Source: an uncultured Erythrobacter sp. (lineage in GTDB: Bacteria > Pseudomonadota > Alphaproteobacteria > Sphingomonadales > Sphingomonadaceae). Taken from it: DNA of 64,000 bases. The position numbers were made by a program, and so were the translations under genes. Below, one piece after another: positions 38,627 to 62,849 of this stretch (positions are counted from its first letter, which is position 1; the number at the start of each line of letters is the position of its first letter). Location: the NCBI GenBank assembly GCA_947493165.1, contig CANLPY010000002.1:186001-250000 (forward strand), in the 5' to 3' direction. The notes below the pieces were generated by a model. That model had not been told where the DNA came from. It saw only the letters and a list, made by a program, of their open reading frames with translations, and did not search any database.

Positions 38627-38655
38627 ATAGGACCCCAAATTGACAACCTTGTCAA
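38627..38655 (-). promoter_or_regulatory. Promoter of the TonB-receptor gene overlapping the operator
   Basis: On the minus strand TTGACA (38655-38650) and TCCTAT (38632-38627) are 17 bp apart, about 55 bp before the start codon. The -35 hexamer is one half of the palindromic operator, so a bound repressor would block polymerase. Confidence 0.5.
38640..38655. promoter_or_regulatory. LacI-type operator (site 1)
   Basis: TTGACAACCTTGTCAA, a 16-bp near-perfect palindrome identical to site 2 at 55983-55998. A further half-site TTGTCAA lies just upstream of it with respect to the receptor gene. The likely regulator is the LacI-family protein at 52433-53485. Confidence 0.75.
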
Positions 38656-38706
38656 CTGCAATTGTCAATTCTTGTGGATTGCGTGTCATCCATGACACGT
38701 CACTCC

Positions 38707-40224
38707 TTAACTAACTGTTCTTGCTTGACAGTTTTCTTCGATAAACTGCTGATGTGTCGGCATATCACTGGCCGCGTTATCGATTGTCTCGCCAATCCGC
38801 CTCACAATCGAATCAATTCGCTCTGGCGCGACCTTGGCAATCAACGGGTTACTCGCCTGCGGCACAATTCCCTGTCCATACATCACGGCAAGCCAGCTGG
38901 CGGTGCCAAAGACATCATTCGGCTCCTCAAAAATCCGCCCACCCTGTTCAAACTGCGCGATGCGGCGGCGCAATTCGTCGGGTTGTTCAATCTGCTGGCA
39001 ATGCCGCCAGAACGCAGTGTCATCGCGCTTAGTCGCTGTATAATGCAGCACAAGAAAATCCCGAACGCGGATGTATTCCCGCAAGGTTCGCGCGTTGAAC
39101 GCGTCAATGTCTGGCTGGCTAAAACGCTTGTCAGGAAAATGCGTCAGCAACCTAGCGATGCTGGTTTGCACCAGATGGATGCTGGTCGATTCTAGCGGCT
39201 CCATAAAACCTGCCGCCAGCCCCAGTGCAAGCACATTGCCCTTCCAAAACTCTTTGCGGTGACCGGTCACAAAGCGCAGGCGATTAGCATCGGCAATCGG
39301 TTCACCATCAAGGTTTGCGCGCAGCGTCGATTCGGCATCATCATCGTCGAGAAATTCGCTGCAATAGACATAGCCGTTGCCAGTGCGATGTTGCAGAGGG
39401 ATGCGCCATTGCCAGCCCGCCTCCCTCGCTGTTGCACGGGTGTAGGGAATGGGAAAGGCGTCGCGCGAACACGGGATCGCGACGGCCCGGTCACACGGCA
39501 GCCATTTGCGCCAATCCTCATAGCCTGATTGCATCGCCTGTTCGATCAACAGCCCACGAAAGCCCGAACAGTCGATAAAGAAATCGCCTTCTATGCTCTG
39601 CCCAGAATCCAATTCAACCGATTGCACATGGCCGCTTGCGCTATCTTGCGCCACATTGCTGATCCGCCCCTCAATCCGCTCAACGCCTTTTCCTTCAGCA
39701 AACCGGCGCAGAAACGCAGCATAAAGCGAGGCATCGAATTGAAACGCGTAATTGATGCCGGCATAGGCCGATTGCGGCCTATCAGTGATCGGCCTCATGA
39801 ACTTTTCGCGACGGCATGCCTCCACCATTAGCGAGTATGAGAACAGGTCATCCTTCTCGCCGTTCAGATTGCGCTGCAACCAATATTGGTAAAATGGAAT
39901 CGCATCGAAATCTCGGCCAAAATCACCGAACGGGTGGATGTAGCTGTGCCCTTTTTCCAGCCAGTCTACAAACTCAATGCCCAGTTTGAATGTCGCATTG
40001 GTTTCCCGGACAAATTCGTCCTCATCAATGCCCAGCATCGTGTTGAACGCGATGATCGGTGGGATCGTTGCCTCGCCCACGCCAACGGTTCCGATGGCTT
40101 CGGATTCGACTAAAGCGACCTTGGTTGGTGACCCTTCAAGCAAATGACCCAGCGCCGCCGCCGTCATCCAACCGGCGGTCCCGCCGCCGACAATCACAAC
40201 TCGATTGAGTAAGTGGGGGTTCAT
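38707..40224 (-). CDS. Flavin-dependent tryptophan-halogenase-like protein, copy 1
   Basis: FADH2-dependent halogenase-family protein, 505 residues. The FAD motif VVIVGGGTAGWMTAAALG starts near residue 9. The catalytic lysine of this family is in NATFKLGIEFVDW (Lys80). The signature GWQWRIPLQHRTG and the glutamate in EPLESTSIHLVQ are intact, so the active site looks functional. I choose ATG 40224 (MNPHLLNRVV), which overlaps the upstream gene stop as ATGA; an earlier in-frame start lies inside that gene. Homologues near TonB receptors in Xanthomonas, Caulobacter and Brevundimonas exist, some of which halogenate free indole; the natural substrate is not known. It is the last gene of a four-gene coupled operon. 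Confidence 0.92.
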   Translation of the reverse strand: MNPHLLNRVVIVGGGTAGWMTAAALGHLLEGSPTKVALVESEAIGTVGVGEATIPPIIAFNTMLGIDEDEFVRETNATFKLGIEFVDWLEKGHSYIHPFGDFGRDFDAIPFYQYWLQRNLNGEKDDLFSYSLMVEACRREKFMRPITDRPQSAYAGINYAFQFDASLYAAFLRRFAEGKGVERIEGRISNVAQDSASGHVQSVELDSGQSIEGDFFIDCSGFRGLLIEQAMQSGYEDWRKWLPCDRAVAIPCSRDAFPIPYTRATAREAGWQWRIPLQHRTGNGYVYCSEFLDDDDAESTLRANLDGEPIADANRLRFVTGHRKEFWKGNVLALGLAAGFMEPLESTSIHLVQTSIARLLTHFPDKRFSQPDIDAFNARTLREYIRVRDFLVLHYTATKRDDTAFWRHCQQIEQPDELRRRIAQFEQGGRIFEEPNDVFGTASWLAVMYGQGIVPQASNPLIAKVAPERIDSIVRRIGETIDNAASDMPTHQQFIEENCQARTVS

Positions 40225-41777
40225 GATTTTTCCATCGAAAATGAAGTGGGCGCCGCTTTGCAAAAGCGCTCAATATAAGCCTGATGCGTGGGCATTGCGG
40301 CTGCCGCTTTGGCATATGTGCTGCGCATATTGGCAAGGCTTTGACAGACGTTTTGATCCGACAAACCACCTGCCACCGGATTGTACCCTTGCGGTCCCCA
40401 CCCTTGCCCTTCCGCAACCGCCAGCCAGCTGGTCACATCAAACAGTTCAGCATCATATTTGAAGAACCGACCACGCGATTGCATCAGGGCCATTTTCTGA
40501 GCAAGACTTTCAGGAATTTCCATCTCGCGCACGTAATCCCAAAACGGCGCATCATCGCGCTTTGTCGCCTTGTAATGCAGGATCAGGAAGTCGCGCACAT
40601 GGGTAAAGTCATCGCGCATAAGACGGTTGTATTCCGCCCGCTCTACCGCCGCATCGCGGCTTTGCGGAAACAGCGCGATAAGTTTTGCGATGCCCATTTG
40701 AATCAAGTGAATGCTGGTCGATTCAAGCGGCTCAAGAAAGCCGGACGCAAGCCCTATGGCAATGCAGTTTCCGGCCCAGAACTGCTCACGATGGCCAGTG
40801 CGAAAACGCAAATGATTAGGCGATGAAACTGGCGCACCGTCAAGGTTCGCAAGCAAGGTCTCTTCCGCCTGTTCAGCGGTTAGATATTCATCGCAATAGA
40901 CATGGCCATTGCCGGTGCGATGCTGCAATGGGATGCGCCATTGCCACCCCGCTTCGCGCGCGGTTGAGCGGGTGTACGGCACTGGATCGGCAATCTTCTC
41001 ACACGCCACAGCAACAGCGCGGTTGCACGGCAGCCAATGGCTCCAATCGATATGTTTGGATGCGAACGTGCCGTCGATCAGCAAGCCTCTAAAGCCGGTG
41101 CAATCGATAAACAAATCGCCTTCAATCCGGCGGTCGCTATCAAGGTCAAGTGCGCTAATCAGTCCACTTTCACCGTCCTGCTCTACCCGCTCAATCCGTC
41201 CTTCAATCCGGGTGACCCCCAAACTCTCAGCGAGGCGGCGCAGAAACGCAGCATAAAGCGAGGCATCAAAGTGATAGGCATAGCCAAGCTGGCCAATCAC
41301 TGCGCCGTGATCCGGTTCCGGCCGAAGGAACTTGCCAGCATAAGCTGCGCGAATGTTGATCGAATACTCGTCCAAGCCGTGCGTCTCACCCTGAGATTTC
41401 AGCCGCGACCAATATTGGTGGAAATCAATTCCCTCTAGATCAAAGCCATAGCGGCCAAAGGGGTGAAAATACGCCTGATTGAGGCCGCCCCAATCAACAA
41501 ATTCAATACCGAGTTTATAGGTCGCCTGCGTCTCTTTAACAAAAGTGTGTTCATCAATCCCAAGCTGGGTGTTGAATTTCATAATCGGCGGAATGGTCGC
41601 TTCGCCAACGCCGACTGTGCCGATCGCCTCGGATTCGACCAGCGTGATGGCAACACCTGAAGGACTGACAATTTTGGCGAGCGCGGCGGCCGTCATCCAG
41701 CCAGCGGTTCCCCCGCCAGCAATGACTACGCGCTTAACTGCACCGCCAGCCAGATCATCTACAAGATCATCCATCAT
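40221..41777 (-). CDS. Flavin-dependent tryptophan-halogenase-like protein, copy 2
   Basis: A 518-residue paralogue of copies 1 and 3. It has RVVIAGGGTAGWMTAAALAK for FAD, the catalytic lysine in QATYKLGIEFVDW (Lys88), GWQWRIPLQHRTGNGHVYC and EPLESTSIHLIQMG. All family catalytic residues that I can identify are present. It is joined by 4-bp overlaps to the genes on both sides. The three intact copies are clearly different in sequence, so the expansion is not a recent duplication. Confidence 0.92.
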   Translation of the reverse strand: MMDDLVDDLAGGAVKRVVIAGGGTAGWMTAAALAKIVSPSGVAITLVESEAIGTVGVGEATIPPIMKFNTQLGIDEHTFVKETQATYKLGIEFVDWGGLNQAYFHPFGRYGFDLEGIDFHQYWSRLKSQGETHGLDEYSINIRAAYAGKFLRPEPDHGAVIGQLGYAYHFDASLYAAFLRRLAESLGVTRIEGRIERVEQDGESGLISALDLDSDRRIEGDLFIDCTGFRGLLIDGTFASKHIDWSHWLPCNRAVAVACEKIADPVPYTRSTAREAGWQWRIPLQHRTGNGHVYCDEYLTAEQAEETLLANLDGAPVSSPNHLRFRTGHREQFWAGNCIAIGLASGFLEPLESTSIHLIQMGIAKLIALFPQSRDAAVERAEYNRLMRDDFTHVRDFLILHYKATKRDDAPFWDYVREMEIPESLAQKMALMQSRGRFFKYDAELFDVTSWLAVAEGQGWGPQGYNPVAGGLSDQNVCQSLANMRSTYAKAAAAMPTHQAYIERFCKAAPTSFSMEKS

Positions 41778-42811
41778 GCCGCCTGCACCTGCCCCGTAAT
41801 TTCTTTGGTTATCTGCCCAATTTGAGTTCGCAATTGCTCCATCCAGTCGATCAATTCTGCCTCAACCATATTGTCTGCCATGCGGTGATAGCGGCGCGGC
41901 CTAAGTCCGCGGAACCATAACGCAGCGAGCCATTCTGACTGAGTGAACACCTCATAATCCTCGCTGGGGATACGGCCACATGCGCCAAAAACTTCAACCT
42001 TGCGGCGTAGCGCCAGACGTTCCGTTGCCAAGGGATCATCAATCGAAAGCAGTTCCAGCATATCGCCCATGCGCTCAGATTGCGCAGCCGCCAACCGGTT
42101 CCATTCATCCCGCTCAGGATTGCTGGCAGCCAATGGCGCAGTAAGCCCAACCAGGCGCTGCACCATGCTACTCAAAATATGCCATTCCATGCCTGGCAAT
42201 TGCGGAATTTGACCAACCGAAATTGCATCGCCAGTCCATTGCGGGGCGCCACCTGCATCGCTGCAATCAATTGTCAGGCAGCCCCCTTCATCGCCAATGG
42301 TCCGCGCGCCGCATTCCTCAGCAAAAGCGATCAAAGCACCGCCATAAAGCGCCCGGTCAAGCCGCACGCCGAATTCCACTGGCAATTGCGCGATGCGTGA
42401 AGCAGGTGCAGGACTTGCCGCACGATCGAGCGCCAGTGATAGGGAAAACTCCATCAACTCTGGTTGATCGCAAATTTGATCGGCACGCAGCCAGTATTGG
42501 TGGAAGTCGACCCCGCGATTGGCGAGCCCGATGGCAGAAAACGGCAGATTAGTCGCGCCATCGGCACACTCTGCCGGCGTACAAAATGCAGGCGCGCCGC
42601 CACATCGCTCCATGACTTTTTCAATCGGCAGTCCAATCTCACCGTGAAAGCGATGCACGTTTGGCCGTGTTAAAAATTCGCCGTGCTCTTCTTCTGGCTC
42701 AGGGCTTAATTCCAAAATTCGGCCCGGCTCCAGCCAGCGCGCCGCTAAATACGCCCCAACAATCCCAACCCGCAAGCGCGGCCCGACCACACGAATGCAC
42801 TCACCGCTCAT
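41774..42811 (-). CDS. Degenerate halogenase paralogue, probably non-catalytic
   Basis: A 345-residue protein flanked by two intact halogenase genes and overlapping both by 4 bp. Local stretches align with them by eye: NRGVDFHQYWLRADQ, VEFGVRLDRALYGGALIAFA, LTIDCSDAGGAP and SEWLAALWFRGLRPRRYHRMAD. It lacks the GGGTAGW dinucleotide motif, the catalytic-lysine segment, GWxWRIP and EPLEST. The reading frame is uninterrupted and tightly coupled, so it is not a decaying pseudogene. It may be a partner subunit, scaffold or regulator of the neighbouring enzymes. The function is unknown. Confidence 0.8.
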   Translation of the reverse strand: MSGECIRVVGPRLRVGIVGAYLAARWLEPGRILELSPEPEEEHGEFLTRPNVHRFHGEIGLPIEKVMERCGGAPAFCTPAECADGATNLPFSAIGLANRGVDFHQYWLRADQICDQPELMEFSLSLALDRAASPAPASRIAQLPVEFGVRLDRALYGGALIAFAEECGARTIGDEGGCLTIDCSDAGGAPQWTGDAISVGQIPQLPGMEWHILSSMVQRLVGLTAPLAASNPERDEWNRLAAAQSERMGDMLELLSIDDPLATERLALRRKVEVFGACGRIPSEDYEVFTQSEWLAALWFRGLRPRRYHRMADNMVEAELIDWMEQLRTQIGQITKEITGQVQAA

Positions 42812-44334
42812 GCGGCGGCGCTCATCATCTTGTTGCGCGCAAGGTAGCTTGCGTGATCTTCCATCGACGCTGCCGCTTTTGCCATATGGCCTTTTAACCC
42901 TTGCAGGTGACGCATAATCTCGCCGTCAGCTTGGCGAGAGGCGCGGCTATCATAGCTGTCAGGTATGATCCGCTGGCCGATCAGCACCGCGATCCAGCTG
43001 GGGATCAGAAACAGGCCGTGATCATAGGATGACACGTGGCCGTGAGCGCGGAACAACTGTAGCCGATCACGCAGGCTATCAGGCACGTTCATCGTGCGCA
43101 TATGGTTCCAAAATTCAGAATCGTCGCGCTGTGTCGCGTTGTAATGCAGGATCAGAAAATCGCGCACACGCTCAAACTGCAAGTCCATCGCGCGGTTGTA
43201 TTCCTCAACTTCAACATGGTATTTCTGGTCTGTCGGAAAGAGTTCGAGCAGCTTGGTTATGCCTTCTTGTATCAGATAAATACTGGTCGATTCCAATGGC
43301 TCCAGAAAGCCGCCTGACAGCCCAATCGCAACAACATTGCGGTGCCACAATTTGCGCCGTTTACCCGTGACAAAGCGCAAGAAACGCGGATCAGCCAAAC
43401 GTTCGCCTTCAAGCCCGCCCAGCAAGGTATCACACGCGGCATCATCGCTTAAAAACTGGCTGGAATAGACGTGGCCGTTGCCGGTGCGATGCTGCAGTGG
43501 GATGCGCCAACTCCAGCCAGCCTCATGCGCTGTGGCGCGCGTATACGGCAGCAGCGGCCCGGCGCTTTTACAAGGCACAGCTACCGCGCGGTCAGCCGGC
43601 AAATAATTGCTCCAATCGTCATATCCAGTTTTCAGGGCCTTTTCGATCAACAGGCCGAAAAAACCAGTGCAATCAACAAACAGATCGCTCTCTATCACCT
43701 GCCCATCATCAAGCGTCATGTGCGATACGCGTCCGCTTTCCGCCTCTAGGGCAACATCCACCACTTTCCCTTCTATCCGGGTGACGCCGCGCGCTTCGGC
43801 ATGTTTGCGCATAAAGGGCGCGTATTGAAGCGCATCAAACTGATACGCATAGCGATAGGTCGACATCACTGAGCGGGGATCTTCGCTAGGCGGCTGAAAT
43901 TTACCCATGCGCGCCGCGATCACTGGCAGTGAGTATTCGTCCAGCGCCCCAATACCCGGCTGATCTGCGAATTTGCGCCAATATTGGTGAAAAGCTACAC
44001 CATCATTTGGAAGTCCAAATTCACCGAATGGGTGGATGTAGCTGTCGCCCTTGCGGCCCCAATTCACAAACTCAATACCCAGTTTGAAGGTGGCTGAGGT
44101 TGCTGCCATGAACTCCGCTTCGTTGACGCCAATTGTGTCGTTGAAGTTCTTGATATGCGGCAGAGTCGCCTCGCCTACGCCGACAACACCAATCGCTTCG
44201 GATTCGATCAACGTAATTTGCAAACCGCTAGGGCCGAGCATGCTGGCCAGCCCGGCCGCAGTCATCCAGCCAGCTGTTCCGCCGCCAACCACAACCACGC
44301 GGTTGATCGCATATTGCCCCTCATTCGCGCTCAA
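42808..44334 (-). CDS. Flavin-dependent tryptophan-halogenase-like protein, copy 3
   Basis: A 508-residue protein, first gene of the leftward operon. It has VVVVGGGTAGWMTAAGLA for FAD, the catalytic lysine in SATFKLGIEFVNW (Lys84), GWSWRIPLQHRTGNGHVY and EPLESTSIYLIQEG. It diverges from the Gfo/Idh operon across a 177-bp region that contains operator-like site 4, so both directions may be controlled together. Downstream genes are linked by ATGA-type overlaps all the way to copy 1. Confidence 0.92.
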   Translation of the reverse strand: MSANEGQYAINRVVVVGGGTAGWMTAAGLASMLGPSGLQITLIESEAIGVVGVGEATLPHIKNFNDTIGVNEAEFMAATSATFKLGIEFVNWGRKGDSYIHPFGEFGLPNDGVAFHQYWRKFADQPGIGALDEYSLPVIAARMGKFQPPSEDPRSVMSTYRYAYQFDALQYAPFMRKHAEARGVTRIEGKVVDVALEAESGRVSHMTLDDGQVIESDLFVDCTGFFGLLIEKALKTGYDDWSNYLPADRAVAVPCKSAGPLLPYTRATAHEAGWSWRIPLQHRTGNGHVYSSQFLSDDAACDTLLGGLEGERLADPRFLRFVTGKRRKLWHRNVVAIGLSGGFLEPLESTSIYLIQEGITKLLELFPTDQKYHVEVEEYNRAMDLQFERVRDFLILHYNATQRDDSEFWNHMRTMNVPDSLRDRLQLFRAHGHVSSYDHGLFLIPSWIAVLIGQRIIPDSYDSRASRQADGEIMRHLQGLKGHMAKAAASMEDHASYLARNKMMSAAA

Positions 44335-44441
44335 TCACTGCTCCTCTATCCCCTGGCCAAGATCGCATGTGGATGCACGCTGTCAATCGCAAGAATTGCA
44401 ACATTCGTTTCTGATCAATGGTGACCAAACCGCACAATCAC

Positions 44442-44470: not shown

Positions 44471-44471
44471 A

Positions 44472-44487
44472 TTGACAACGTAAGACA
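44472..44487. promoter_or_regulatory. LacI-type operator, imperfect (site 4)
   Basis: TTGACAACGTAAGACA matches the left ten bases of the regulon palindrome but only weakly the right half. It lies between the divergent halogenase and Gfo/Idh operons, just downstream of a candidate promoter. Confidence 0.45.
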
Positions 44488-44511
44488 AGATCAGTCTTGG
44501 GGAGGGACCTC

Positions 44512-45711
44512 TTGAGCTACGCGAAAGTGCGAATGGGAATGGTTGGCGGCGGTGAAGGATCCTTCATCGGTGCGGTACACCGGATGGCTGCCGCCCTTGA
44601 TCAACGCCTTGATCTGGTTAGCGGTGCATTCAGCCGCGATTTTGCGAACAGCCTTGCCACTTGCACCGCATTGGGCCTGCCCGATAACCGCTGTTATCAA
44701 GACTTAGGCACAATGTTGAGCTGCGAACAGGAACTCGCGGCAACCGGTGCTCGTAATGCTGGCGCGATGGAAATGCTGTCGATCGTAACTCCGAATGATA
44801 CCCATGCTCCGATGGCCAGCGCGGCTGCGAAGGCGGGTATCCATGTAATGTCTGACAAGCCAGCGGGCATTAGCCTTGCAGAAATTGAAGACTTGGCCGC
44901 CACGATTGAGCAAAGCGGCGTGCATTACGGCCTGACCCACACTTATCTTGGTTATCCGATGGTATGGCAGGCGCGGCATCTCGCAGCGCATCCAGACTTC
45001 GGCCCGATCCGCAAAGTTCTCGTCAGCTACACGCAGGGCTGGCTGGCGAGCGAGACTGAACGCAGCGGCAACAAGCAGGCTGAATGGCGGGTCGATCCAA
45101 AGCGTTCTGGTCCCGCAGGCGGCCTCGGCGACATTGGCAGCCACGCTCACTCTCTGGCGGAATTCGTCGCGGATTCGCGCATGGCGAGGCTATCTGCGCG
45201 GTTGCGCAGCCATTACCCGACAAGGCCGCTTGATGATGATGGCGAAATCAGCTTCACGTTAGACAATGGCGCGACCGGTCAGCTTGTTTCCAGCCAGATT
45301 TGCGCTGGCGATGAAAACGATCTGCGCATCCGTGTTTATGGAGAGCACGCCAGCCTTGATTGGCGGCAGATGGAGCCAAACACGCTGACTGAACGGCGCG
45401 CTAGCGGTCAAAGCATCGTCCACCGCGCAGGCGTTGATAAGCCCTTGTGCGAGGCGGCGCTCAAACGCTGCCGCCTGCCATCCGGTCATCCTGAGGGATA
45501 TGTTGAAGCCTTTGCCAACCTCTACAGCGGGTTTGCGCAAGCGATCCGCGAAGACGTTATGCCTTCGACGCTGGGCGTGCCCGGCATTGCAGAGGCTTTG
45601 CGCGGCATGGCCTTTTTGGAGGCAGCGATTGCCAGCAATGCCGCCAACGGCGCTTGGCATGAAATCAAACCACCCAGCGTTGGACCAGACACAAAAGGAT
45701 TGCTGTCGTGA
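44512..45711 (+). CDS. Gfo/Idh/MocA-family NAD(P)-dependent sugar dehydrogenase
   Basis: A 399-residue cytoplasmic oxidoreductase that would oxidise or reduce a sugar or polyol. The Rossmann motif is [17 protein letters not shown] and the family motif [12 protein letters not shown] carries the catalytic-lysine region (EKP in most members, DKP here). The C-terminal domain has [20 protein letters not shown] with the usual catalytic Asp and His. I choose TTG 44512 because GGAGGG lies 5 bp before it; a TTG 15 bp upstream lies at the edge of that site. It begins a six-gene operon running to 51352 and overlaps the next gene by 4 bp. Confidence 0.88.
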
Positions 45712-46766
45712 AAGAGATAAAAGGCCCGGCCATATTCCTCGCACAATTCATGGGCGATAAAGAGCCTTTCAATTCGCTCGATAATATTGCCGAATGGGTC
45801 GCGGGGCTTGGGTATAAGGGCATTCAAATTCCGTCCAATGATCCGCGGTGCATTGATCTTGATCTGGCCGCAGAAAGTCAGGATTATTGCGATGATTTGG
45901 CTGGCCGCTGCGCCGAGCATGGCCTCACCATCACAGAATTATCGACCCACATCCAAGGGCAATTGGTGGCAGTCCACCCAGCTTTTGATGATCTGTTCGA
46001 TGGCTTTGCGCCTGAGCATTTGCACGGCAAGCCTGATGCCCGCCAAGAATGGGCAGTTGATCAGGTCAAAAAGGCCGCAATCGCCTCGCGCCGGCTGGGT
46101 TTGAAGGCGTGCGCCAGCTTTTCCGGAGCGTTAATGTGGCACTTGGTCTATCCCTGGCCGCAGCGCCCAGCGGGCCTCGTCGAGGCCGGTTTTGCCGAGC
46201 TTGCCAAGCGTTGGAAGCCAATCCTTGATGTTTATGAGGATAACGGCGTTGATGTCGCTTATGAAATTCACCCCGGTGAAGACTTGCATGACGGCGCCAG
46301 CTTTGAGGCGTTTCTGGACGCTGTCGATAATCACCCGCGCGCCAATATCCTGTTCGATCCCAGTCACTTCATGCTGCAACAGCTTGATTACCTAGATTTT
46401 ATTGATCGCTATCATGACCGCATCAAAGCATTCCATGTGAAGGACGCAGAATTCCGGCCCAACGGGCGCACCGGGGTCTATGGCGGTTATCAGGGATGGC
46501 AGGACCGCGCCGGCCGGTTCCGCTCGCTGGGCGATGGGCAAGTCGACTTCCGCCAGATTTTCACGAAGCTCACCCATCATGGCTTTGATGGTTGGGCCGT
46601 GCTGGAATGGGAGTGCTGTTACAAGCACCCGGAACAAGGCGCCGCTGAAGGCGCGCCATTTATCGCAGACCATATTATCCGGCCGACCGAATACGCGTTT
46701 GATGATTTCGCGGGCGGCGATGTGGATGAGGCCATGATTAAACGCGCGCTAGGCATCGATAGCTAG
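45708..46766 (+). CDS. Sugar phosphate isomerase/epimerase family TIM-barrel protein (cytoplasmic)
   Basis: A 352-residue xylose-isomerase-like TIM barrel without a signal peptide. Likely metal ligands are the Glu in AYEIHPGED, the Asp/His in ILFDPSHFMLQQ, the His in KAFHVKDAEF and the Glu in AVLEWECCY. The start is GTG 45708 overlapping the Gfo/Idh stop. In other bacteria genes of this type beside Gfo/Idh dehydrogenases isomerise or cleave keto-sugars. A role on 3-keto-glycosides is an inference. Confidence 0.85.
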   Translation: MKEIKGPAIFLAQFMGDKEPFNSLDNIAEWVAGLGYKGIQIPSNDPRCIDLDLAAESQDYCDDLAGRCAEHGLTITELSTHIQGQLVAVHPAFDDLFDGFAPEHLHGKPDARQEWAVDQVKKAAIASRRLGLKACASFSGALMWHLVYPWPQRPAGLVEAGFAELAKRWKPILDVYEDNGVDVAYEIHPGEDLHDGASFEAFLDAVDNHPRANILFDPSHFMLQQLDYLDFIDRYHDRIKAFHVKDAEFRPNGRTGVYGGYQGWQDRAGRFRSLGDGQVDFRQIFTKLTHHGFDGWAVLEWECCYKHPEQGAAEGAPFIADHIIRPTEYAFDDFAGGDVDEAMIKRALGIDS

Positions 46767-46789
46767 ATGCGATTTGGAGAGGGAAATTC

Positions 46790-48202: not shown

Positions 48203-48756
48203 CGACAGTTACCCCATCCATGTCGCGCCGCTCAATGCTGCGCGGGACGATAACGATAGCAGGCGCAGCAATAGTTTTGCCAAGCATGGCGGGGCTTGCC
48301 GGGTGCAGCTCCGCCCCTGCGTCGCTTGACACGCACAAGGATATGATTGCCGCGCTAGCAGATCGGATCATCCCGGCTACCGATACGCCCGGCGCATCGG
48401 CTGCGGGCGTCCCACAATATATCGCTGATGTGTTCGCAGACTTCTTCACCGAGGATCAGCAAAGCGAGTTTGCCGCCGGTCTGGATGGCCTTGCAAGCAC
48501 CTTGGACGAGATTGGCGGCGGTGATTTCGCCGCCCTTAGCCCGGATAAACAAGACGCAGCGCTTACCAAATTCGTTGATGATCAAGACGCCGCTGGACAA
48601 TTCGAGTGGCAGCAAATCCGCGATATGACGATCTTTGGGTATTACACCTCTGAAATCGCCACCCAAGAGCTTTCATTTGAGGAAGTACCAGGCCGCTATG
48701 AGGCCTGCATTCCGCTCGCCGAGGTCGATAGAGCCTGGCTCAATCGCGGCGTGTGA
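48199..48756 (+). CDS. Tat-exported small subunit of a GMC dehydrogenase (gluconate 2-dehydrogenase subunit 3 family)
   Basis: A 185-residue protein with a twin-arginine signal (SMSRRSMLRGTITIAGAA) and a possible lipobox (LAGC). The mature part has DMIAALADRIIPATDTPGA and FEWQQIRDMTIFGYYTS, the hallmarks of the small subunit found with FAD-dependent sugar dehydrogenases. Such subunits carry the signal for the large subunit, which has none, so both go to the periplasm together. It lies directly before the GMC gene. No cytochrome c subunit gene follows. Confidence 0.9.
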   Translation: MTTVTPSMSRRSMLRGTITIAGAAIVLPSMAGLAGCSSAPASLDTHKDMIAALADRIIPATDTPGASAAGVPQYIADVFADFFTEDQQSEFAAGLDGLASTLDEIGGGDFAALSPDKQDAALTKFVDDQDAAGQFEWQQIRDMTIFGYYTSEIATQELSFEEVPGRYEACIPLAEVDRAWLNRGV

Positions 48757-48782
48757 CCTCTACCCAATCAGGAAATACAACC

Positions 48783-52410: not shown

Positions 52411-52432
52411 GTTTCTCTCACTTTCAGTTGAT

Positions 52433-53485: not shown

Positions 53486-53493
53486 CCCGCCCC

Positions 53494-54885: not shown

Positions 54886-54886
54886 G

Positions 54887-55945
54887 TCAAAACCTGCCGA
54901 GGCCTACGGCTTTGGTGCGCACCGCGACCAAACTGTCCTTGGCTGTGATAAACACAGTCCTGCCATCCTCGCCAAAGGCGCAATTGGCGCTTGCTCGGCC
55001 GGTGTTGATGCGACCAAGACAGCGCGCTTCTTGGTCGATCACCAGCACGCCCGCCGGTCCAGCCAGAAATACGTATCCGTCCTGAGCTAACGCTAGACCG
55101 TCGGGCAGACCACCCGCTTCGTGCATGAATGGCTGGCAGTCGAACCACACCTCTCCCCGGTCTATTGCAGAACTGCTTGGCGACGGTGTCGCGATGCGCC
55201 GGATCAGCGGCGCTGCTGTATCTGATTGCGCTACATACAGGAACCGCTCATCAGGAGACAATGCAACGCCATTGGGGAAGGTCATATCGTCCACAATCAG
55301 GGTGACTTCGCCGTCCGGATGCAGCCGGTACACACCATTGCGGTCCAACTCTTTTAATGGCGAGTTGTTTAGCCCGTCCAATCCATAGGGTGGATCCGTG
55401 AAATAGATCGTTCCATCGCTGGCTTGGATCAGATCGTTGGGGCTGTTGAAACGTTTACCCGCAATGCTGCCAGCAAGGGTACGCCTTTGGCCGGTGTCAA
55501 AATCCAGCGCTTCGACACAGCGCTTGCCGTGATTGCAGATCAGCAATTCGCCTGAGTTACCGATCAGCAATCCGTTGGCACCTAGGTCGCCCTTGCGTTG
55601 GGCTTGTTCAGGCGCAATACCGGATGGATCAAGGAACGTTGAAATCCCAGTCTCGCGCTTCCACGCATAGGCACGATTGCGGGGCACATCGGTAAAATAT
55701 AGGCTTTGTCGTTCGCTGTCCCAAGCCGGGCCTTCCGCCCACCAATGTCCCTTTGATAGCCAACGCGCCGGCGCATCAACATCCACTATGTCGGAGAATT
55801 TGGGATCGAAAACGTCAAAAGTAACTTGCGCTTCATCGCTGGCTTCAAGCGCAGCGATGGATGATCCAACCCCGCGCGGTCCGGCGCAAGCGGCAACTAA
55901 TCCCAGTGACAAACCCGATAATGTTGTCCGACGCGACAATTCCAT
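54887..55945 (-). CDS. Exported SMP-30/gluconolactonase-family lactonase
   Basis: A 352-residue six-bladed propeller hydrolase that opens sugar lactones. It has a Tat-type start (LSRRTTLSGLSLG) and a lipobox-like LVAAC, so it acts in the periplasm. Family residues are WAEGPAWDSERQSLYFTDVP (metal-binding Glu), RFNSPNDLIQASDGTIYFTD and GVALSPDERFLYVAQSD. It leads the operon with the transporter, repressor and GH5 genes. Its location agrees with a periplasmic dehydrogenase producing lactone, the GMC enzyme of the neighbouring operon. Confidence 0.9.
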   Translation of the reverse strand: MELSRRTTLSGLSLGLVAACAGPRGVGSSIAALEASDEAQVTFDVFDPKFSDIVDVDAPARWLSKGHWWAEGPAWDSERQSLYFTDVPRNRAYAWKRETGISTFLDPSGIAPEQAQRKGDLGANGLLIGNSGELLICNHGKRCVEALDFDTGQRRTLAGSIAGKRFNSPNDLIQASDGTIYFTDPPYGLDGLNNSPLKELDRNGVYRLHPDGEVTLIVDDMTFPNGVALSPDERFLYVAQSDTAAPLIRRIATPSPSSSAIDRGEVWFDCQPFMHEAGGLPDGLALAQDGYVFLAGPAGVLVIDQEARCLGRINTGRASANCAFGEDGRTVFITAKDSLVAVRTKAVGLGRF

Positions 55946-55968: not shown

Positions 55969-55998
55969 GTGATATTCCAATATTGACAACCTTGTCAA
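55969..55998 (-). promoter_or_regulatory. Promoter of the lactonase-transporter-lacI-GH5 operon
   Basis: On the minus strand TTGACA (55998-55993) and TATCAC (55974-55969) are 18 bp apart, about 24 bp before the ATG. The -35 is half of operator site 2, the same arrangement as at the receptor gene. Confidence 0.5.
55983..55998. promoter_or_regulatory. LacI-type operator (site 2)
   Basis: TTGACAACCTTGTCAA, identical in all sixteen bases to site 1. It lies between the divergent lactonase and GH3 operons, 38 bp before the lactonase start and 80 bp before the GH3 start, and can control both. Confidence 0.78.
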
Positions 55999-56078
55999 AA
56001 AACGCTGGTTAGATACCAAGCTTGGACAAAATCGGGGATTCGCGAGCCAAAGGCCGCGATTGGAGAGAGAAGATCATA

Positions 56079-58637
56079 ATGCGCACTCAATCGATCAAAT
56101 CAGCTGCGGCGCTGGGCGCCAGCCTTATAGTTATGGGCTGCACGCAAAGCACTACCGCTGATCGCGTGCAATCTGTTGCGTCATCGGCTTCGCAAGCTGC
56201 GGCCCCGCAAGCAGAAGTCACAGCGGCCACCATCAACCCTGAAATCTGGCCCAAACTGACGCCTGCCCCGCTTGATCCCGCGATTGAGGCGCGCATTGAT
56301 TCAATCATGGCGCAAATGACGCTGGAACAGAAAGTCGGTCAGACGATCCAAGCCGATTCTGCCTCTGTTACGGTCGACGAGGTCAAGCAGTATCGTTTGG
56401 GATCAGTGCTGAGCGGCGGTAACTCTGCGCCAGGCCCCCTGCCCTATGCGGCAACGCAAGAATGGCTGGAACTGGCTGACGAATATTGGAACGCGTCAAA
56501 CGATCCTGAGGGGGTGGAAATCGCCATTCCTGTGATCTGGGGCATTGATGCCGTTCACGGTCACGCGAACCTTTTGGGCGCAACCATCTTTCCGCATAAC
56601 GTTGGCTTAGGGGCAGCGCGCGATCCCGATCTGATTGAACGGATTATGGCCGCGACAGCCCGCGAACTGGTAGTTTCGGGCCATGACTGGACGTTTGCGC
56701 CGACCCTTGCGGTACCGCGAGATGATCGCTGGGGGCGCGGATATGAAGGGTTTTCGGAAGATCCAAAGATCGTCGTCTCATATTCGGATCGGATCGTAGA
56801 GGGCCTGCAAGGCTCCTATGGCGAAGCTGACTTTATGGCCCCAGGCAAAATCCTTTCCGCCGCAAAACACTATATCGGTGATGGCGCAACCGATGACGGA
56901 CGCGATCAAGGCGATGCAAGCATCAGCGAAGAGGAATTGCGCGATATCCACGCGGTTGGCTATCTGCCCGCACTCGATGCACAAGTGCAAACCGTCATGG
57001 TGTCGTTCTCCAGCTGGCAGAATATCAAGATGACCGGAAACAAAGCGCTGATCACAGATGTGTTGAAAGGCCGGATGGGTTTCAACGGCTTCGTCATCAG
57101 CGATTGGAACGCGCACGGCCAAATCCCAGGTTGTTCTAACTCTGATTGCCCAGAGGCATTCAACGCAGGAATAGACATGTTCATGGCGCCTGATAGCTGG
57201 CGCGGTCTGTACGAAACCACGCTAGCCCACGCGAAATCTGGCCGCATCCCAATGGCAAGGCTGGATGATGCGGTGCGCCGCATTCTGCGTGTGAAGCTGA
57301 ATTACGGATTGTTCGATCGCGGCGCGCCAAGCACCCGCGCAGATGCGGGCAATGTCAGTCTGCTCGCCAATGCTGAACACCGCGCTATTGCGCGTGAAGC
57401 CGTGCGCAAATCGCTGGTCCTACTTAAAAACAACGGTTCTGTTCTGCCATTGAGCGGCGCGCAAAAGGTGCTCGTCGTTGGTGATGGGGCCAACAGTATC
57501 GCCAAATCCTCTGGCGGCTGGACCTTGTCATGGCAGGGCGGCACACACACCAATGATGAATTTCCCAACGGACAAACAATCTTGTCGGGCATTCGCGAGG
57601 CTGTTGCCAAAGCTGGCGGCGAAGTGATTTACGATACCGATGGCACTGGCAACCACGATGCGGATGTTGTGATCGCGGTTTATGGCGAAGATGCCTATGC
57701 CGAATTCCAAGGCGACCGGCCGCATGTCGGTTTTATCGATCAGGGTTTCGACACCGGCCTGCTCAAAAGCTATCAGGATAAGGGGATGCCGGTGGTTTCG
57801 GTGTTTCTTTCCGGCCGCCCAATGTGGACCAATCCGCAAATCAACGCCTCTGATGCATTCGTGGCCGCATGGCTGCCCGGCAGCGAGGGGGCGGGCGTAA
57901 GCGACATGCTGTTTGAAAGCGAAGCGGGCTATGATTTTACCGGCAGGCTTTCTTTCTCGTGGCCAAAGCTGGCGACTCAAGCGACGATTAATGTAGGCGA
58001 TGCTGACTACGATCCGCTGTTCGCTTATGGTTACGGCCTCAGCCTCTCAGATACGAGCACGCTGGCGCAGCTTTCTGAGGATGCGGGTATTGATTTGAAC
58101 GGTAACGCGTCTGCCGATGTTCTTTTCGCAGCGGGCAGTTCACCTAACCCATGGTCGCTCTATGGCGTGATCGCGGGAGCGCAAACGCGCTTAAACTCCA
58201 CCTCATGGGATGGCGGCGCGCTGAATGTCAGCGGGACGGATCGTTTGGCTCAAGAGGATTCGCTGGCAATCCGCTGGGCCTCCGCTGAACCCTATATGCG
58301 TATCGGATCGCAGGCACCTGTAGACTTCACACGCCAATCGAACGGCGCGATGGAACTGGCGTTTTTCGTCCGCAATCTTGGCGAAGCTCCGGCGCAAATG
58401 CGGGTCGCGATGGGCTGCGAAGATGGCAGCGAATGCGGCGCTGCCCTGCCGGTAACAGTGCGTTCGAGCGAATGGCGCGAAGTGCGGTTGTCGCTTGCAT
58501 GTTTTGCTGATCTTGGCGCTGATCTCAGCACGCTCAGCACGGGCATGGTACTACGTTCGAGTGGCCCGGCAAACATCGGCATTTCCGACATCCGTTTGGC
58601 ACCTGATATAGATGCGACCCGCACTTGCTCATTCTAA
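56079..58637 (+). CDS. Glycoside hydrolase family 3 lipoprotein (beta-glucosidase/exo-glucanase)
   Basis: An 852-residue exported enzyme releasing glucose or short units from beta-glucans. ATG 56079 follows GGAGAGAGA and starts a lipoprotein signal with lipobox VMGC (Cys near 21). Domain 1 has GIDAVHGHANLLGATIFPHN and GRGYEGFSEDPKIV; the nucleophile is the Asp in GFVISDWNAHGQIPG. Domain 2 has VRKSLVLLKNNGSVLPL and DGANSIAKSSGGWTLSWQGG. The last 190 residues form an extra beta domain, as in the 1,4-beta-D-glucan glucohydrolases of Caulobacter-type bacteria. The upstream in-frame start codon has no signal peptide, so I reject it. It is followed by gluconokinase. Confidence 0.92.
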   Translation: MRTQSIKSAAALGASLIVMGCTQSTTADRVQSVASSASQAAAPQAEVTAATINPEIWPKLTPAPLDPAIEARIDSIMAQMTLEQKVGQTIQADSASVTVDEVKQYRLGSVLSGGNSAPGPLPYAATQEWLELADEYWNASNDPEGVEIAIPVIWGIDAVHGHANLLGATIFPHNVGLGAARDPDLIERIMAATARELVVSGHDWTFAPTLAVPRDDRWGRGYEGFSEDPKIVVSYSDRIVEGLQGSYGEADFMAPGKILSAAKHYIGDGATDDGRDQGDASISEEELRDIHAVGYLPALDAQVQTVMVSFSSWQNIKMTGNKALITDVLKGRMGFNGFVISDWNAHGQIPGCSNSDCPEAFNAGIDMFMAPDSWRGLYETTLAHAKSGRIPMARLDDAVRRILRVKLNYGLFDRGAPSTRADAGNVSLLANAEHRAIAREAVRKSLVLLKNNGSVLPLSGAQKVLVVGDGANSIAKSSGGWTLSWQGGTHTNDEFPNGQTILSGIREAVAKAGGEVIYDTDGTGNHDADVVIAVYGEDAYAEFQGDRPHVGFIDQGFDTGLLKSYQDKGMPVVSVFLSGRPMWTNPQINASDAFVAAWLPGSEGAGVSDMLFESEAGYDFTGRLSFSWPKLATQATINVGDADYDPLFAYGYGLSLSDTSTLAQLSEDAGIDLNGNASADVLFAAGSSPNPWSLYGVIAGAQTRLNSTSWDGGALNVSGTDRLAQEDSLAIRWASAEPYMRIGSQAPVDFTRQSNGAMELAFFVRNLGEAPAQMRVAMGCEDGSECGAALPVTVRSSEWREVRLSLACFADLGADLSTLSTGMVLRSSGPANIGISDIRLAPDIDATRTCSF

Positions 58638-58656
58638 GCGGGCTTTGCCGCCCAGC

Positions 58657-59157
58657 ATGACGACACAGCGCTTGATCGTCATCATGGGGCCAAGCGGCTG
58701 CGGAAAATCCAGCGTCGCAGCGAGTCTGGCAGAAGCACGGCAACTTACCATGCTCGAAGGGGATGACTTTCACCCGGATGAGAATGTCGCAAAAATGGCC
58801 GATGGCATCGCGCTGAATGATAGAGATCGCGCAGCGTGGCTCGATAATCTAATGGCGGCGATCAACACCTCTACTGCCACCACGCTTGTGCTCGCTTGCT
58901 CTGCATTGACGTCTTACGTGCAGCGGCGCCTAACATCAGGGACGCCGCGCCAAGTGATATTCGCCTTGCTCGATGCGCCTAAGGATGTTTTGGCGGAGCG
59001 ATTAACAGGGCGCGCCGATCACTTCATGCCTGCCAGTCTTCTGGATAGCCAACTTGCAGCGCTGAGCCCGCCCGTTAATGCAATCCGCATCGATGCAACC
59101 GGAACCGTTGAGGCAATCACTGCGCACTTGCGCGAGCGGTTAAACCAGCAGACCTAA
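58657..59157 (+). CDS. gntK: Gluconokinase
   Basis: A 166-residue P-loop kinase phosphorylating D-gluconate to 6-phosphogluconate. The motifs are VIMGPSGCGKSSVA, LEGDDFHPDENVAKMADGI and ALNDRDRAAWL, then CSALTSYVQRRL and RADHFMPASLLDSQ, all diagnostic for GntK. ATG 58657 gives the standard length; the longer frame begins inside GH3. It is 19 bp after the GH3 gene, so gluconate use is coupled to glucan cleavage. The 3' end overlaps the convergent gntP gene by 18 bp. Confidence 0.95.
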   Translation: MTTQRLIVIMGPSGCGKSSVAASLAEARQLTMLEGDDFHPDENVAKMADGIALNDRDRAAWLDNLMAAINTSTATTLVLACSALTSYVQRRLTSGTPRQVIFALLDAPKDVLAERLTGRADHFMPASLLDSQLAALSPPVNAIRIDATGTVEAITAHLRERLNQQT

Positions 59158-60474
59158 CGCTAAGACCATCACAAACCCGACAAGTCCGACCAGCGTTGAG
59201 GCGATTGTCCATGTGCGCAAAGTTTCCCCTTCGCTCAGGCGGAAATAGCGCGACACCAGCCAGAAACCGCTGTCATTGACATGGCTGACCACGCTGGCAC
59301 CTGCCGCAATCGCAATGACCATGCGCGCAAGATCCCAGCCTTCAAGTCCAGCAGCAACTGCCAGCGGCGCGCTTAGACCCGCTGCGGTCAACATCGCGAC
59401 CGTGGCTGAGCCTTGCGCTACTCGTACAATCGCAGCCAAGGCAAAGCCTGCAATGATCGGCCCAATGCCAAAACCTGCAAAGCTTTCCGCGAGTATCTTT
59501 CCCGCACCGGTATCCACCAGCACTTGCTTGAATGCGCCGCCAGCACCTGTCACCAACAGGATTACGGCAGTGGGTTCAAAGGCGCGCGACAAGCCCTCTT
59601 TCAAACGCAGCTGCCCCGCCGCATCATCCGCTTTCAGCGCAACAGCCGCCACTGCGCAGCCGATGAGCAGAGCGACAAATGGGTGACCGATAAAGGCCAG
59701 CAATGCAGGCGGATTGCCAAATTGCGCAGCCAATGCGGAGGCGACAATCAGCAGCAGTGGGATCGCCACAACCAAGGCGGCTTTCGTCGCAAGCGCAATG
59801 TTGACAGGTGCTCCTTCAGCAATCTGATCAAGCGATCCATCTGCTGATGGCAACCAGCCCAATTTCTCCGCAACGCGCGTGTAGTGCGGCCCGGCGATCA
59901 GCATAGCGGGGATCCCGGCGACCAGCCCGCAAATGATTACCAGCCCAAGATCTGCCGAAAGGATCTCGGCAACCGCCACTGGTCCAGGCGTAGGCGGGAT
60001 AAAGGCATGGGCGGTCGCCAAGCCGGCGAGCAAGGGCAGGCCGAAATATATCGCCGGTTTGCCCGCGCGCCGGGCTAATGCTTGAACCAGCGGGAACAGC
60101 AAAATCAGGCCAACGTCGAAGAATACCGGAATGGCGATCACTAAGCCGACAAAGCCCGTCGCAATTCCAGCTGGGCCTGCGGGCCTGTTGCCGATTACCG
60201 TGCGCGCCAGTGCCGCAGCGCCTCCGCTTGCCTCCAGATACACGCCCAACAACGCGCCAAGGCCAACAATTACCGCGATAAAGCCCAGCACCCCGGCAAA
60301 CCCATTCGTCACCGCCTCGATCACGGCTTCGGGTGACAGGCCGGCCATCAGGCCCGTTGCCAGCGCGGCCACCAACAAGGCAGCAAAGGCGTTTACGCGC
60401 CGCACCAAGATCAGGATCAAAAGCGCAGCTACGCCCGCAAATGTAGCGAGCAATGGGTTGCCGACAAACGTCAC
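59140..60474 (-). CDS. gntP: GntP-family gluconate permease
   Basis: A 444-residue inner-membrane gluconate:H+ symporter. Family segments include IGNRPAGPAGIATGFVGLVI, IPVFFDVGLILLFPLVQALA, GLATAHAFIPPTPGPVAVAE, FGIGPIIAGFALAAIVRVAQ and SATVAMLTAAGL. The start is GTG 60474, sharing one base with the stop of the lipoprotein gene upstream. It is the third gene of an operon beginning at operator site 3 and would import gluconate made in the periplasm by the GMC enzyme and the lactonase. Confidence 0.93.
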   Translation of the reverse strand: MTFVGNPLLATFAGVAALLILILVRRVNAFAALLVAALATGLMAGLSPEAVIEAVTNGFAGVLGFIAVIVGLGALLGVYLEASGGAAALARTVIGNRPAGPAGIATGFVGLVIAIPVFFDVGLILLFPLVQALARRAGKPAIYFGLPLLAGLATAHAFIPPTPGPVAVAEILSADLGLVIICGLVAGIPAMLIAGPHYTRVAEKLGWLPSADGSLDQIAEGAPVNIALATKAALVVAIPLLLIVASALAAQFGNPPALLAFIGHPFVALLIGCAVAAVALKADDAAGQLRLKEGLSRAFEPTAVILLVTGAGGAFKQVLVDTGAGKILAESFAGFGIGPIIAGFALAAIVRVAQGSATVAMLTAAGLSAPLAVAAGLEGWDLARMVIAIAAGASVVSHVNDSGFWLVSRYFRLSEGETLRTWTIASTLVGLVGFVMVLALGLLV

Positions 60475-62324
60475 TATTGCGCTCCGACCCGGCTTAACAG
60501 GAGCACTCGATCAGTCTCGCTCGGCTGTCCGAAAACCTGCTTTAAGTCGCTGTTTGGCGACAGTTCGATCTGCTGCGCCGCGTCATCCCAATTGCCCGAG
60601 ACCGGATCGAAGCTGCGCGCAATATAACGACCAGCAACAACCGCACCGGCTGCGATTTGCGGGGTCTCAGCGCTCCAATAGATCGCGTAGGTCCGCCCCG
60701 GATCAGCCAAACAATAAGCAGGCCCCTCGCATGGCTGCATCGCAGTGTATTCAAGCTCGCTGTCAAAGAAACCGAGCGCGATGCGCGTTTGCGACCACAG
60801 GTTTGCACGGCTGCGCCAATCCTCCGTCGTAAGATCATTGCCCTTTTGATGCGCGCCAAAATACCATTCCACGCCCGCGCCGCCTGCAAGCAAAGTGCCC
60901 CATAATGCGTGACGACGAAGGCTGTCATGCGCGGGATCATCCTCATCCGCACGCGCGCCAACCGGCCATTTGCCGATTTCGTCCATAGTGATCGCCCAAC
61001 TTTGCCCGGCGCTTTCAGATTGATTCATCCACTTGCGCACTTCGGCATTTACAGTCTCGCGCTCAGCCACCTGAAATGACAATCCATCAAGCGTTGGGTG
61101 ACCCAGCAGAGGTGTGAGAATAGCATCCTTATCAGCAGCTTCGGCATGGGTGTGGAGCAGAACGGGGTGCTGATAGGGATCATTGGCTGCAAAATAATCT
61201 GCCATCGCCATGCGCTGCGCATCTGTTTGCCCCTCGGGCCGCCAATGCACAGGGCCGTTTTCTTCGCCCAAATTCCAAAACAGCCCCGGATGATGCGCAA
61301 ACCGAGCAATCAATTCGTTGAAGTATAGCCCGCGCAGCCGCCCAGTGTCGCCGCCATCAAGCAGCAATTCGTTCTCAGTTTCCTGCACTACGATATGCAG
61401 CGCAATGCCGCGCGCTTGCATGTGCCGAAAGACAATCTCCCATTGCGCCAGCTTGCTCACATCGAACCGCGTGGGATCGTTGGGGTTGATCCAGGGCCAC
61501 ACGTCTTTGCCATCGCCATCGACGTTTAACGTTAGGAAGTAGGCCGCATTCATACCTTGATCGGCGAGGTAATTGATCGCCCCGATCAACCCCTTGCCCT
61601 TGGTGCCTTGCCATACGGGATCGCCAGCGCGCCAATCGCGCGCGTGCGGCGCAAAGCCATGGATCATGCCGCCTGCATCGGATTCGCCATCTCTGGCGTT
61701 GTCAGCCACGCGGTATGTGCCGTCAAAATCAACGAAGGCTAGCAGGTTTTCAGGGCTGTTCGCCCCGCCTTTAAGCCACGGCCTACCTGCGCCGCTGACG
61801 CGGAAATAGCGTCCGTCCTGCACGATCTTTCCATCAGCATAGAAACCTGTCGCATCATCAGCGGGAGGCGCGACAATAAAGCGGCCTTGCCACTCGCCAA
61901 GTGTTTCGGCGCTCGCTGGCGCGGCAGAGGAGATCGCTGCATCATCTGCTTGCACCAACCGCGCGCTGTAACGCCACTCACCTACCTCATCGGGCATAAA
62001 ACGTGCGCGCCAGATAGCGCCTGCATCAGCGCCTGTCTCCGCTGCATTGCCATCAGCGGCAAAGAACCCGCGAACGGCGACGTCACGCTCATCATGCGTG
62101 AACACAACCTCCAGCCGCATATCCGTGAACGGGTTAAGCGCGCCGTCTTCCCCCGCCTCAGGGCCTTCAAAATCAAGCGTCACCGGCTGCCATTGCTGAT
62201 GCGCAATTGCGCTCGCCGAAGACGCGCTTTGCGGGCTTAGGGCAGGATTTACGCAAGCGGACACCGCGAACAGGCCCGCCATCAGAAACGCGAATTTAGC
62301 GCCGATACCTTTCAATGTTTGCAC
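60474..62324 (-). CDS. DUF5060-type lipoprotein, putative glycoside hydrolase
   Basis: A 616-residue exported protein. The signal ends in a lipobox (AVSAC). The first 150 residues match the beta-sandwich DUF5060 type (WQPVTLDFEGPEAGEDGALN, FMPDEVGEWRYSARLV). The central part is a TIM-barrel-like domain with RPWLKGGANSPENLLAF, AAYFLTLNVDGDGKDVWPWI, LFWNLGEENGPVHW (candidate catalytic Glu) and WAITMDEIGKWP. The last part resembles the small C-terminal beta domain common in these proteins. The start is GTG 62324, immediately after the cupin stop. The substrate is unknown; activity on a glycan of the same regulon is an inference. Confidence 0.82.
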   Translation of the reverse strand: MQTLKGIGAKFAFLMAGLFAVSACVNPALSPQSASSASAIAHQQWQPVTLDFEGPEAGEDGALNPFTDMRLEVVFTHDERDVAVRGFFAADGNAAETGADAGAIWRARFMPDEVGEWRYSARLVQADDAAISSAAPASAETLGEWQGRFIVAPPADDATGFYADGKIVQDGRYFRVSGAGRPWLKGGANSPENLLAFVDFDGTYRVADNARDGESDAGGMIHGFAPHARDWRAGDPVWQGTKGKGLIGAINYLADQGMNAAYFLTLNVDGDGKDVWPWINPNDPTRFDVSKLAQWEIVFRHMQARGIALHIVVQETENELLLDGGDTGRLRGLYFNELIARFAHHPGLFWNLGEENGPVHWRPEGQTDAQRMAMADYFAANDPYQHPVLLHTHAEAADKDAILTPLLGHPTLDGLSFQVAERETVNAEVRKWMNQSESAGQSWAITMDEIGKWPVGARADEDDPAHDSLRRHALWGTLLAGGAGVEWYFGAHQKGNDLTTEDWRSRANLWSQTRIALGFFDSELEYTAMQPCEGPAYCLADPGRTYAIYWSAETPQIAAGAVVAGRYIARSFDPVSGNWDDAAQQIELSPNSDLKQVFGQPSETDRVLLLSRVGAQ

Positions 62325-62810
62325 TTACTGCCCGGGGTCAGGCGGCGTCGGCAGCCCTTGCGAATTCCATTTCCAAAACACGAATGTCAGCGGCACATCG
62401 CCGGTGTTCTTAATACCGTGCAGGTCCCATGCGGCGGCGTAGATCATATCGCCTTGAGTGGCAGGGAATGTCTCTTCACCGACGGTCCATTCTCCGCTTC
62501 CTTCAACCACCATCAGAAATTCTTCTTCGGCATGGCGGTGCGGGGGATGGATTTCTAAGCCCGGATTGATCGTCGCAGTACCGGAAAGCAGATCGCGCGT
62601 GCCAGCTGTCGCGCCTGCGAAATACTCTTTGAAAGTGCCCCATTCTTCGTCCGTGGCTGCGGCAGTTTCTGCGGTGATAACGGTGGTGGCGATATTGGCC
62701 TCAACCGCCTCAACATCATCGGAAACCTCTGCAGCAGGAGCCGCGCATCCAGCCAATAGGCCAACCCCCAACACATTGACCAAGCACACGCCTGCAATAC
62801 GAACTATCAT
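62325..62810 (-). CDS. Cupin-domain lipoprotein
   Basis: A 161-residue exported protein with a lipoprotein signal (lipobox LLAGC) and one cupin domain. The metal-binding motif is PPHRHAEEEFLMVVEGSGEW, with two His and one Glu, and the second motif is GDMIYAAAWDLHGIKN, whose His completes the site. The cupin may bind or isomerise a sugar acid, but this is unproven. It leads the operon with the DUF5060 lipoprotein and gntP. ATG 62810 follows GAGGAGGG, 23 bp from operator site 3. Confidence 0.87.
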   Translation of the reverse strand: MIVRIAGVCLVNVLGVGLLAGCAAPAAEVSDDVEAVEANIATTVITAETAAATDEEWGTFKEYFAGATAGTRDLLSGTATINPGLEIHPPHRHAEEEFLMVVEGSGEWTVGEETFPATQGDMIYAAAWDLHGIKNTGDVPLTFVFWKWNSQGLPTPPDPGQ

Positions 62811-62833
62811 AAACCCTCCTCAAACCCGCTGTT

Positions 62834-62849
62834 TTGATAACGTTGTCAA
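62834..62849. promoter_or_regulatory. LacI-type operator (site 3)
   Basis: TTGATAACGTTGTCAA, a variant of the regulon palindrome with one mismatch in symmetry and the central ACGT dyad intact. It lies between the divergent cupin operon and the acyl-CoA dehydrogenase gene, closer to the cupin start. Confidence 0.7.

Follow-up and report, generated by a model that had tools for sequence, protein, structure and literature searches.

Candidate LacI-family operators of four operons and a conserved 17-base element in a putative glucan locus of an uncultured Erythrobacter sp.

How far does a single local repressor reach in a locus that joins putative glucan breakdown to sugar oxidation? The question is raised by a stretch of 64,000 nucleotides, referred to as the window, from an uncultured Erythrobacter sp. 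(assembly GCA_947493165.1, contig CANLPY010000002.1; C2:186001-250000 of a host genome of 2.97 Mb in 3 contigs), which encodes a LacI-family regulator amid genes for a TonB-dependent receptor, glycoside hydrolases, gluconate-related functions, and halogenase-type flavoproteins. The original prediction had linked six operons of this locus through one LacI-type palindrome and a half-site of it. A LacI regulon is strongly supported by sequence comparison for four of these operons, namely those of the TonB receptor, lactonase-MFS-lacI-GH5, GH3-gntK, and cupin-DUF5060-gntP, because their sites are conserved across genera and co-occur with the repressor, whereas the assignment of the redox and halogenase operons via the site at 44472 was not supported. 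The outcome is a regulon open to experimental test, complete with operator forms and conserved promoters, in a glucan locus that additionally encodes halogenase-type flavoproteins and contains an operon of the sugar-oxidation type.

Palindromic sites and the accompanying LacI-family protein

Two of the putative operators, at 38640-38655 and 55983-55998, consist of the exact palindrome TTGACAACCTTGTCAA, as had been predicted, and a third palindromic site, TTGATAACGTTGTCAA, is indeed present at 62834-62849. The first is located upstream of the TonB-dependent receptor gene (35388..38573, minus strand; PF00593 and PF07715). The second lies between the operon encoding a lactonase (SMP-30), a GPH/MFS symporter, LacI, and a GH5 protein (51385..55945, minus strand; delimited by close gene spacing and Pfam/NCBIfam matches) and the genes for a GH3 protein and a gluconokinase (56022..59157, plus strand; Pfam/NCBIfam). 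The third, with the core TGACAACGTTATCA, precedes the genes for a cupin, a DUF5060 protein, and a GntP permease (59140..62810, minus strand; Pfam/NCBIfam). All three palindromes are intergenic, between genes named by protein families, in agreement with the claim that none is inside a gene. The site at 62834 is additionally faced by a divergent acyl-CoA dehydrogenase gene with its start near 62939, which was missing from the predicted targets; this gene (62939-64000 in the window, opposite the cupin operator) has a homolog at the same place in the related genomes G436 and G439. Between the receptor operator and the end of the halogenase operon, a further palindrome, CGTGTCATCCATGACACG, perfect apart from its two-base centre, occurs at 38683-38700; the corresponding position of most other loci showed no such palindrome.

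The window contained six strand-matches to the palindrome with up to three mismatches, falling on three places, whereas 100 dinucleotide shuffles gave 0.34 on average and never more than 3; the palindromes of the window are real and beyond chance. Genome-wide, TTGACAANNTTGTCAA was found exactly at 38640 and 55983 only and with one mismatch at 62834 only, and hence at no unrelated gene within 0-1 mismatch. Looser matches (up to three mismatches) carry no information, as 173 per strand were counted versus 128 for a reversed-pattern control. With up to two mismatches, counts exceeded the control in most of 11 related genomes (for instance, 58/61 versus 19/21 in G063 and 46/44 versus 11/7 in G441), from which nothing was drawn, since only part of the places was among the matches listed. 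Further candidate members were rejected. A distal site with two mismatches (C2:427710), before the gene of a TonB receptor of 908 amino acids, is not kept in orthologs: this receptor is present in nine of the ten genomes examined, the own one included, and its eight orthologs showed no match with 0-2 mismatches, three of them having three-mismatch matches elsewhere in the locus. Similarly, the symporter gene at 33667-35250 has no site, as 138, 262, and 245 of 300 shuffles gave a match as good in the window, G436, and G439, respectively.

Conservation was assessed in ten Erythrobacteraceae loci, i.e., the window and nine others with a LacI protein 62-86% identical; those named by genome below include G435 (locus L047), G436 (L048), G437 (L049; Erythrobacter longus DSM 6997), G438 (L050; Qipengyuania proteolytica), and G439 (L051). 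Gene order is mostly maintained among them. In G438, the GH5 and GH3 matches lie apart and the stretch read holds no halogenase or receptor match; a DUF5060 match is lacking in G009, G237, and G438, and the first MFS protein finds a match of 30-32% at best in G435, G063, and G159. Comparable sites in related loci, named as support in the original prediction, were found. The lactonase site reads TTGACAAGGTTGTCAA on the lactonase strand in all ten loci, with 16 of 16 columns invariant and 0 of 90 in the flanks, even in G438, where its other flank is a gluconokinase gene and not GH3. The receptor site is present in all nine loci with a receptor (six exact, G009 and G237 with one mismatch, G437 with two); its upstream half TTGACAA is invariant, as are 11 of its 16 columns, versus 1 of 90 flanking columns. 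At the cupin site, the core TGACAACGTTATCA is found in 9/9 loci (14/16 columns invariant, flanks 0/90), G437 being outside this count because its contig ends before the site. The apparent variant at 62834 is, from this alignment, a fixed promoter-specific form of the putative operator; a seemingly degenerate site thus turns out to be nothing of the kind. The centre is CG at the cupin site in nine of nine loci, GG on the lactonase strand at the lactonase site in ten of ten, and GG (six) or CG (three) at the nine receptor sites.

Some of these sites were flagged inside frames by the open reading frame caller; according to protein maps, the frames are not locus genes, except for one site of G009. 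In that genome, position 35013 of the joined stretch (L055 15013) carries TTGACAACGTTATCAT, a cupin-type operator sequence with one difference, inside the GH5 match that directly follows lacI. In G237, a perfect palindrome, TTGAGAACGTTCTCAA, occurs at 48044 of the joined stretch (L059 8044), near a second halogenase and a LacI homolog, perhaps representing a sister regulon.

The candidate binder of the palindromes is the LacI-family regulator encoded at 52433..53485 (minus strand), in one of the target operons as predicted. Both a LacI helix-turn-helix domain (PF00356; 70.2 bits, cut-off 27) and a periplasmic-binding-protein-like sensor domain (PF13377; 130.4 bits, cut-off 26.5) are present, as in LacI-family members, and its solved relatives include RbsR-, CcpA-, and PurR-type chains; a palindromic operator upstream of sugar-use genes, kept in related loci, agrees with this family as well. 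Orthologs at E<=1e-90 occur in 4 of 397 genomes of the family, the own one included. Among 40 relatives, G009 has an ortholog of 74% identity, the next best being 42-43%, and a class-wide search at E<=1e-85 found no genome but the own one among 385. A search of genome contigs yielded seven loci, of which five belong to Erythrobacteraceae (L047 to L051), one to a Maricaulis metagenome-assembled genome (MAG), and one to a Hyphomonadaceae MAG. The distribution of the locus is rare and patchy. The LacI proteins of the latter two are 49-50% identical to that of the window. The Maricaulis MAG has CTGACAACGCTGTCAA in an intergenic position before a GH3-like gene, and the Hyphomonadaceae MAG has TTGACAACATTGTCAA before a lactonase gene, TTGACACCGTTGTCAA before a symporter gene, and, 54 bp past a GMC gene whose product is 64% identical to the window GMC protein, an exact copy of TTGACAAGGTTGTCAA. 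The recognition segment AGVSIKTVSRVLNNEPHV, whose residues we take to contact DNA, is the same in all 12 orthologs read. In addition, the exact palindrome occurs in 6 of the 397 genomes, including all four with a LacI ortholog; an overlap of this kind would arise by chance with a probability of ~1.5e-8 if genomes were independent, a figure that serves as a guide only, as the genomes are related.

A perfect palindrome near this operator in sequence, TTGACAGCGCTGTCAA, was also seen in L029 (position 2750) and L030 (position 1235), ~250 bp upstream of the genes of LacI homologs of 38% identity, in hosts of another family of the same order.

Proposed circuit and promoter geometry

The favoured explanation, to which a probability of roughly 0.86 is assigned, is that the protein of 52433-53485 acts locally, repressing a glucan/gluconate locus together with its own gene and controlling four operons via three palindromes. 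A LacI dimer would bind the 16-bp palindrome TTGACAANNTTRTCAA at the three places and block RNA polymerase, as the operator would cover promoter elements, until a pathway product (a sugar or sugar-acid) released it. Self-regulation would follow from lacI being the third gene of its own target operon. Occlusion repression, self-regulation, and a sugar effector are general traits of LacI-family regulators, and the circuit is very probably of this ordinary sugar-responsive type. Binding, repression rather than activation, the promoter boxes, and the effector are put forward as we infer them.

At the lactonase promoter, one operator half may be the -35 box, as had been proposed for this promoter and for that of the receptor. 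Indeed, TTGACA is found in the lactonase direction in 10/10 loci and is followed 18 bp on by TATCA in 7/10 (aligned columns), so that TTGACA (55998-55993) and TATCAC (55974-55969) are a possible -35 and -10 box; at the receptor promoter, the same arrangement is probable, although weaker. At the cupin promoter, an operator half would instead be the -10 box. In the cupin direction, TTGC precedes the intra-operator TATCA at -35 distance (17-bp spacer) in seven of nine loci, G063 having TTGA and G159 neither, and TATCAA (62839-62834) with TTGCAA (62862-62857) is a possible -10 and -35 pair. The variant base at 62834 may therefore serve to build a -10 box, which would explain its fixation.

Several observations weigh against this explanation. 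A scan for Escherichia coli-type promoters found none at three of the four sites examined and, at the receptor, picked up a weak promoter other than the proposed one. The recognition pair IK also occurs in L016 and L025, LacI homologs of 40-42% identity, and no such site lies within ~1.5 kb of these. The genomes G208 and G266 hold one exact palindrome each without a LacI ortholog, before a cytochrome P450-like gene and between aldehyde dehydrogenase-like and dioxygenase-like genes, respectively (gene likenesses from reading of the sequence), and these copies are left as chance or sites of other regulators; the reversed-pattern control itself occurs in 4 of the 397 genomes. Finally, the loci are related and shared descent adds to the conservation of the sites, though the flanks have diverged.

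The proposed circuit resembles systems described elsewhere. According to the text of PMC4052901, even palindromes are assigned to 1251 of 1303 LacI-family regulators, with a CG centre in 1173, and more than 75% of LacI-family sites lie 30-140 bp upstream; two of the three window sites depart from the prevalent CG in having a GG/CC centre. The same text describes BglR1-3 (beta-glucoside) as local LacI-family sugar regulons of Caulobacterales, which likewise combine an even palindrome upstream of sugar operons with a regulator gene within the locus, a likeness at the level of description. The GntR/IdnR gluconate repressor group treated there resembles the window in its target genes, which include those for a gluconokinase and a permease of the gluconate type; in the window, these are joined by genes for glucanases, a lactonase, and a TonB receptor. 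Neither Sphingomonadales nor TonB occurs in its main text (PMC4052901). SucR of the Caulobacter suc locus, also of the LacI type, represses a sucrose operon that includes a TonB-dependent receptor gene (PMC11897816), and the window similarly links a putative LacI-type repressor to an operon with such a receptor. SucR is described as expressed constitutively from upstream and as controlling one operon (PMC11897816), whereas the lacI of the window is itself part of a proposed target operon, and sites precede four operons. Six operator strings, including the 17-mer discussed below, had no occurrence in the open-access literature searched, RegPrecise and subscription papers being outside that scope; no title on this locus was among the matches listed there, and an earlier description elsewhere is possible.

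The 17-base element before the redox operon and competing readings

Of the six operons predicted to be served, the palindromes account for four, leaving the divergent redox and halogenase operons on either side of 44472. The redox operon (44497..51352, plus strand; Pfam/NCBIfam) encodes GFO/IDH/MocA, AP_endonuc_2, MFS, Gluconate_2-dh3, GMC, and AP_endonuc_2 proteins, and the tryptophan-halogenase-type operon (38707..44334, minus strand; Pfam/NCBIfam) comprises three full-length matches and one weaker match. The predicted half-site TTGACAACGTAAGACA is present at 44472-44487, where it forms the start of a non-palindromic 17-mer, TTGACAACGTAAGACAA (44472..44488, plus strand). Inverted-repeat symmetry is wanting, with three of eight pairs matching as an even and four of eight as an odd palindrome, and the reading as a LacI half-site was not supported. 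The 17-mer is exact in nine of the ten loci, G063 having TTGACAACGATAGACAA with two differences; 15 of its 17 columns are invariant versus 3 of 90 flanking ones, conservation is equal in its left and right parts, and it contains GACAA twice, 10 bp apart. From these alignments, 44472 is a distinct conserved element and not a decayed palindrome. It appears to belong with the redox operon, because it is retained in G438 without an adjoining halogenase match, an alpha-glucosidase-like gene (reading of the sequence) lying upstream instead; its service to both operons was therefore not upheld. The halogenase operon was not counted as a member: in its upstream regions from nine loci, between 29 and 286 of 300 shuffles gave a palindrome match at least as good as the best native one.

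LacI might nevertheless govern the redox operon, with the halogenases as possible further targets, by binding the 17-mer through one strong half-site, a reading held at somewhat less than even odds. The string TTGACAACG is common to the 17-mer and the cupin operator, and the Pfam scan of the locus genes named no regulator other than LacI. In addition, GFO homologs at E<=1e-110 were found in five of the 397 genomes, i.e., the four with LacI and G248. The latter has no LacI at E<=1e-90, and was rejected as a second locus, since its GFO homolog is 51% identical only and no 17-mer was found within 5 mismatches. On the other side, a half-site would hardly explain why the right part of an element with three palindromic pairs is conserved like the left, and, for the halogenases, their shuffle counts and the situation in G438 speak against it as well.

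Alternatively, the 17-mer may be recognised by another regulator, whose gene is located elsewhere and which co-regulates the redox operon; this reading is likewise tentative and falls a little short of an even chance. Its direct-repeat layout differs from the LacI palindromes, and near-copies occur outside the locus: a one-difference copy, TTGACAACCTAAGACAA, precedes a chemotaxis-receptor-like gene in the own genome (L096; G000:C1:1322430-1322446), and a two-difference copy, ATGACAACCTAAGACAA, has similar surroundings in G435 (L107; G435:C3:221785-221801). However, no candidate protein for such a regulator was found, and the 17-mer follows the LacI-bearing locus. With this conserved 17-base element exposed, its binder can be sought directly. 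A broader proposal, regarded as unlikely, is that one LacI reads both the palindromes of the four operons and the fixed non-palindromic element that opens the redox operon, in which GACAA recurs with a 10-bp period. The fixed operator form of each promoter would then double as a -35, -10, or start-site element, giving a built-in order of induction.

As to the palindromes themselves, the genome encodes five other LacI proteins, any of which might be the binder. This is very improbable, as their recognition pairs (KK, KK, AM, PG, and QS, where AGVSIKTVSRVLNNEPHV has IK) differ, no palindrome with 0-2 mismatches lies within ~1.5 kb of them, and the exact sites track the locus LacI across genomes. 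Finally, the palindromes could be two back-to-back -35 boxes for promoter strength, TTGACA being the consensus -35 and present on both strands at 55983, but 14-16 invariant bases exceed what a -35 box requires, one side of the cupin form reads TTATCA, and exact copies occur in all four LacI-bearing genomes and in just two without LacI, making this reading scarcely credible.

Likely substrate of the locus

The nearest solved structures of the GH5 protein are endoglucanases and that of the GH3 protein is an exo-1,3/1,4-beta-glucanase; the substrate of the locus is therefore likely a beta-glucan. No solved relative of the DUF5060 protein was found at E 0.01. The GMC protein of the redox operon matches subunits of fructose and glucose dehydrogenases among solved structures. 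As for the GH3 gene, an ATG near 56080 may be its start.

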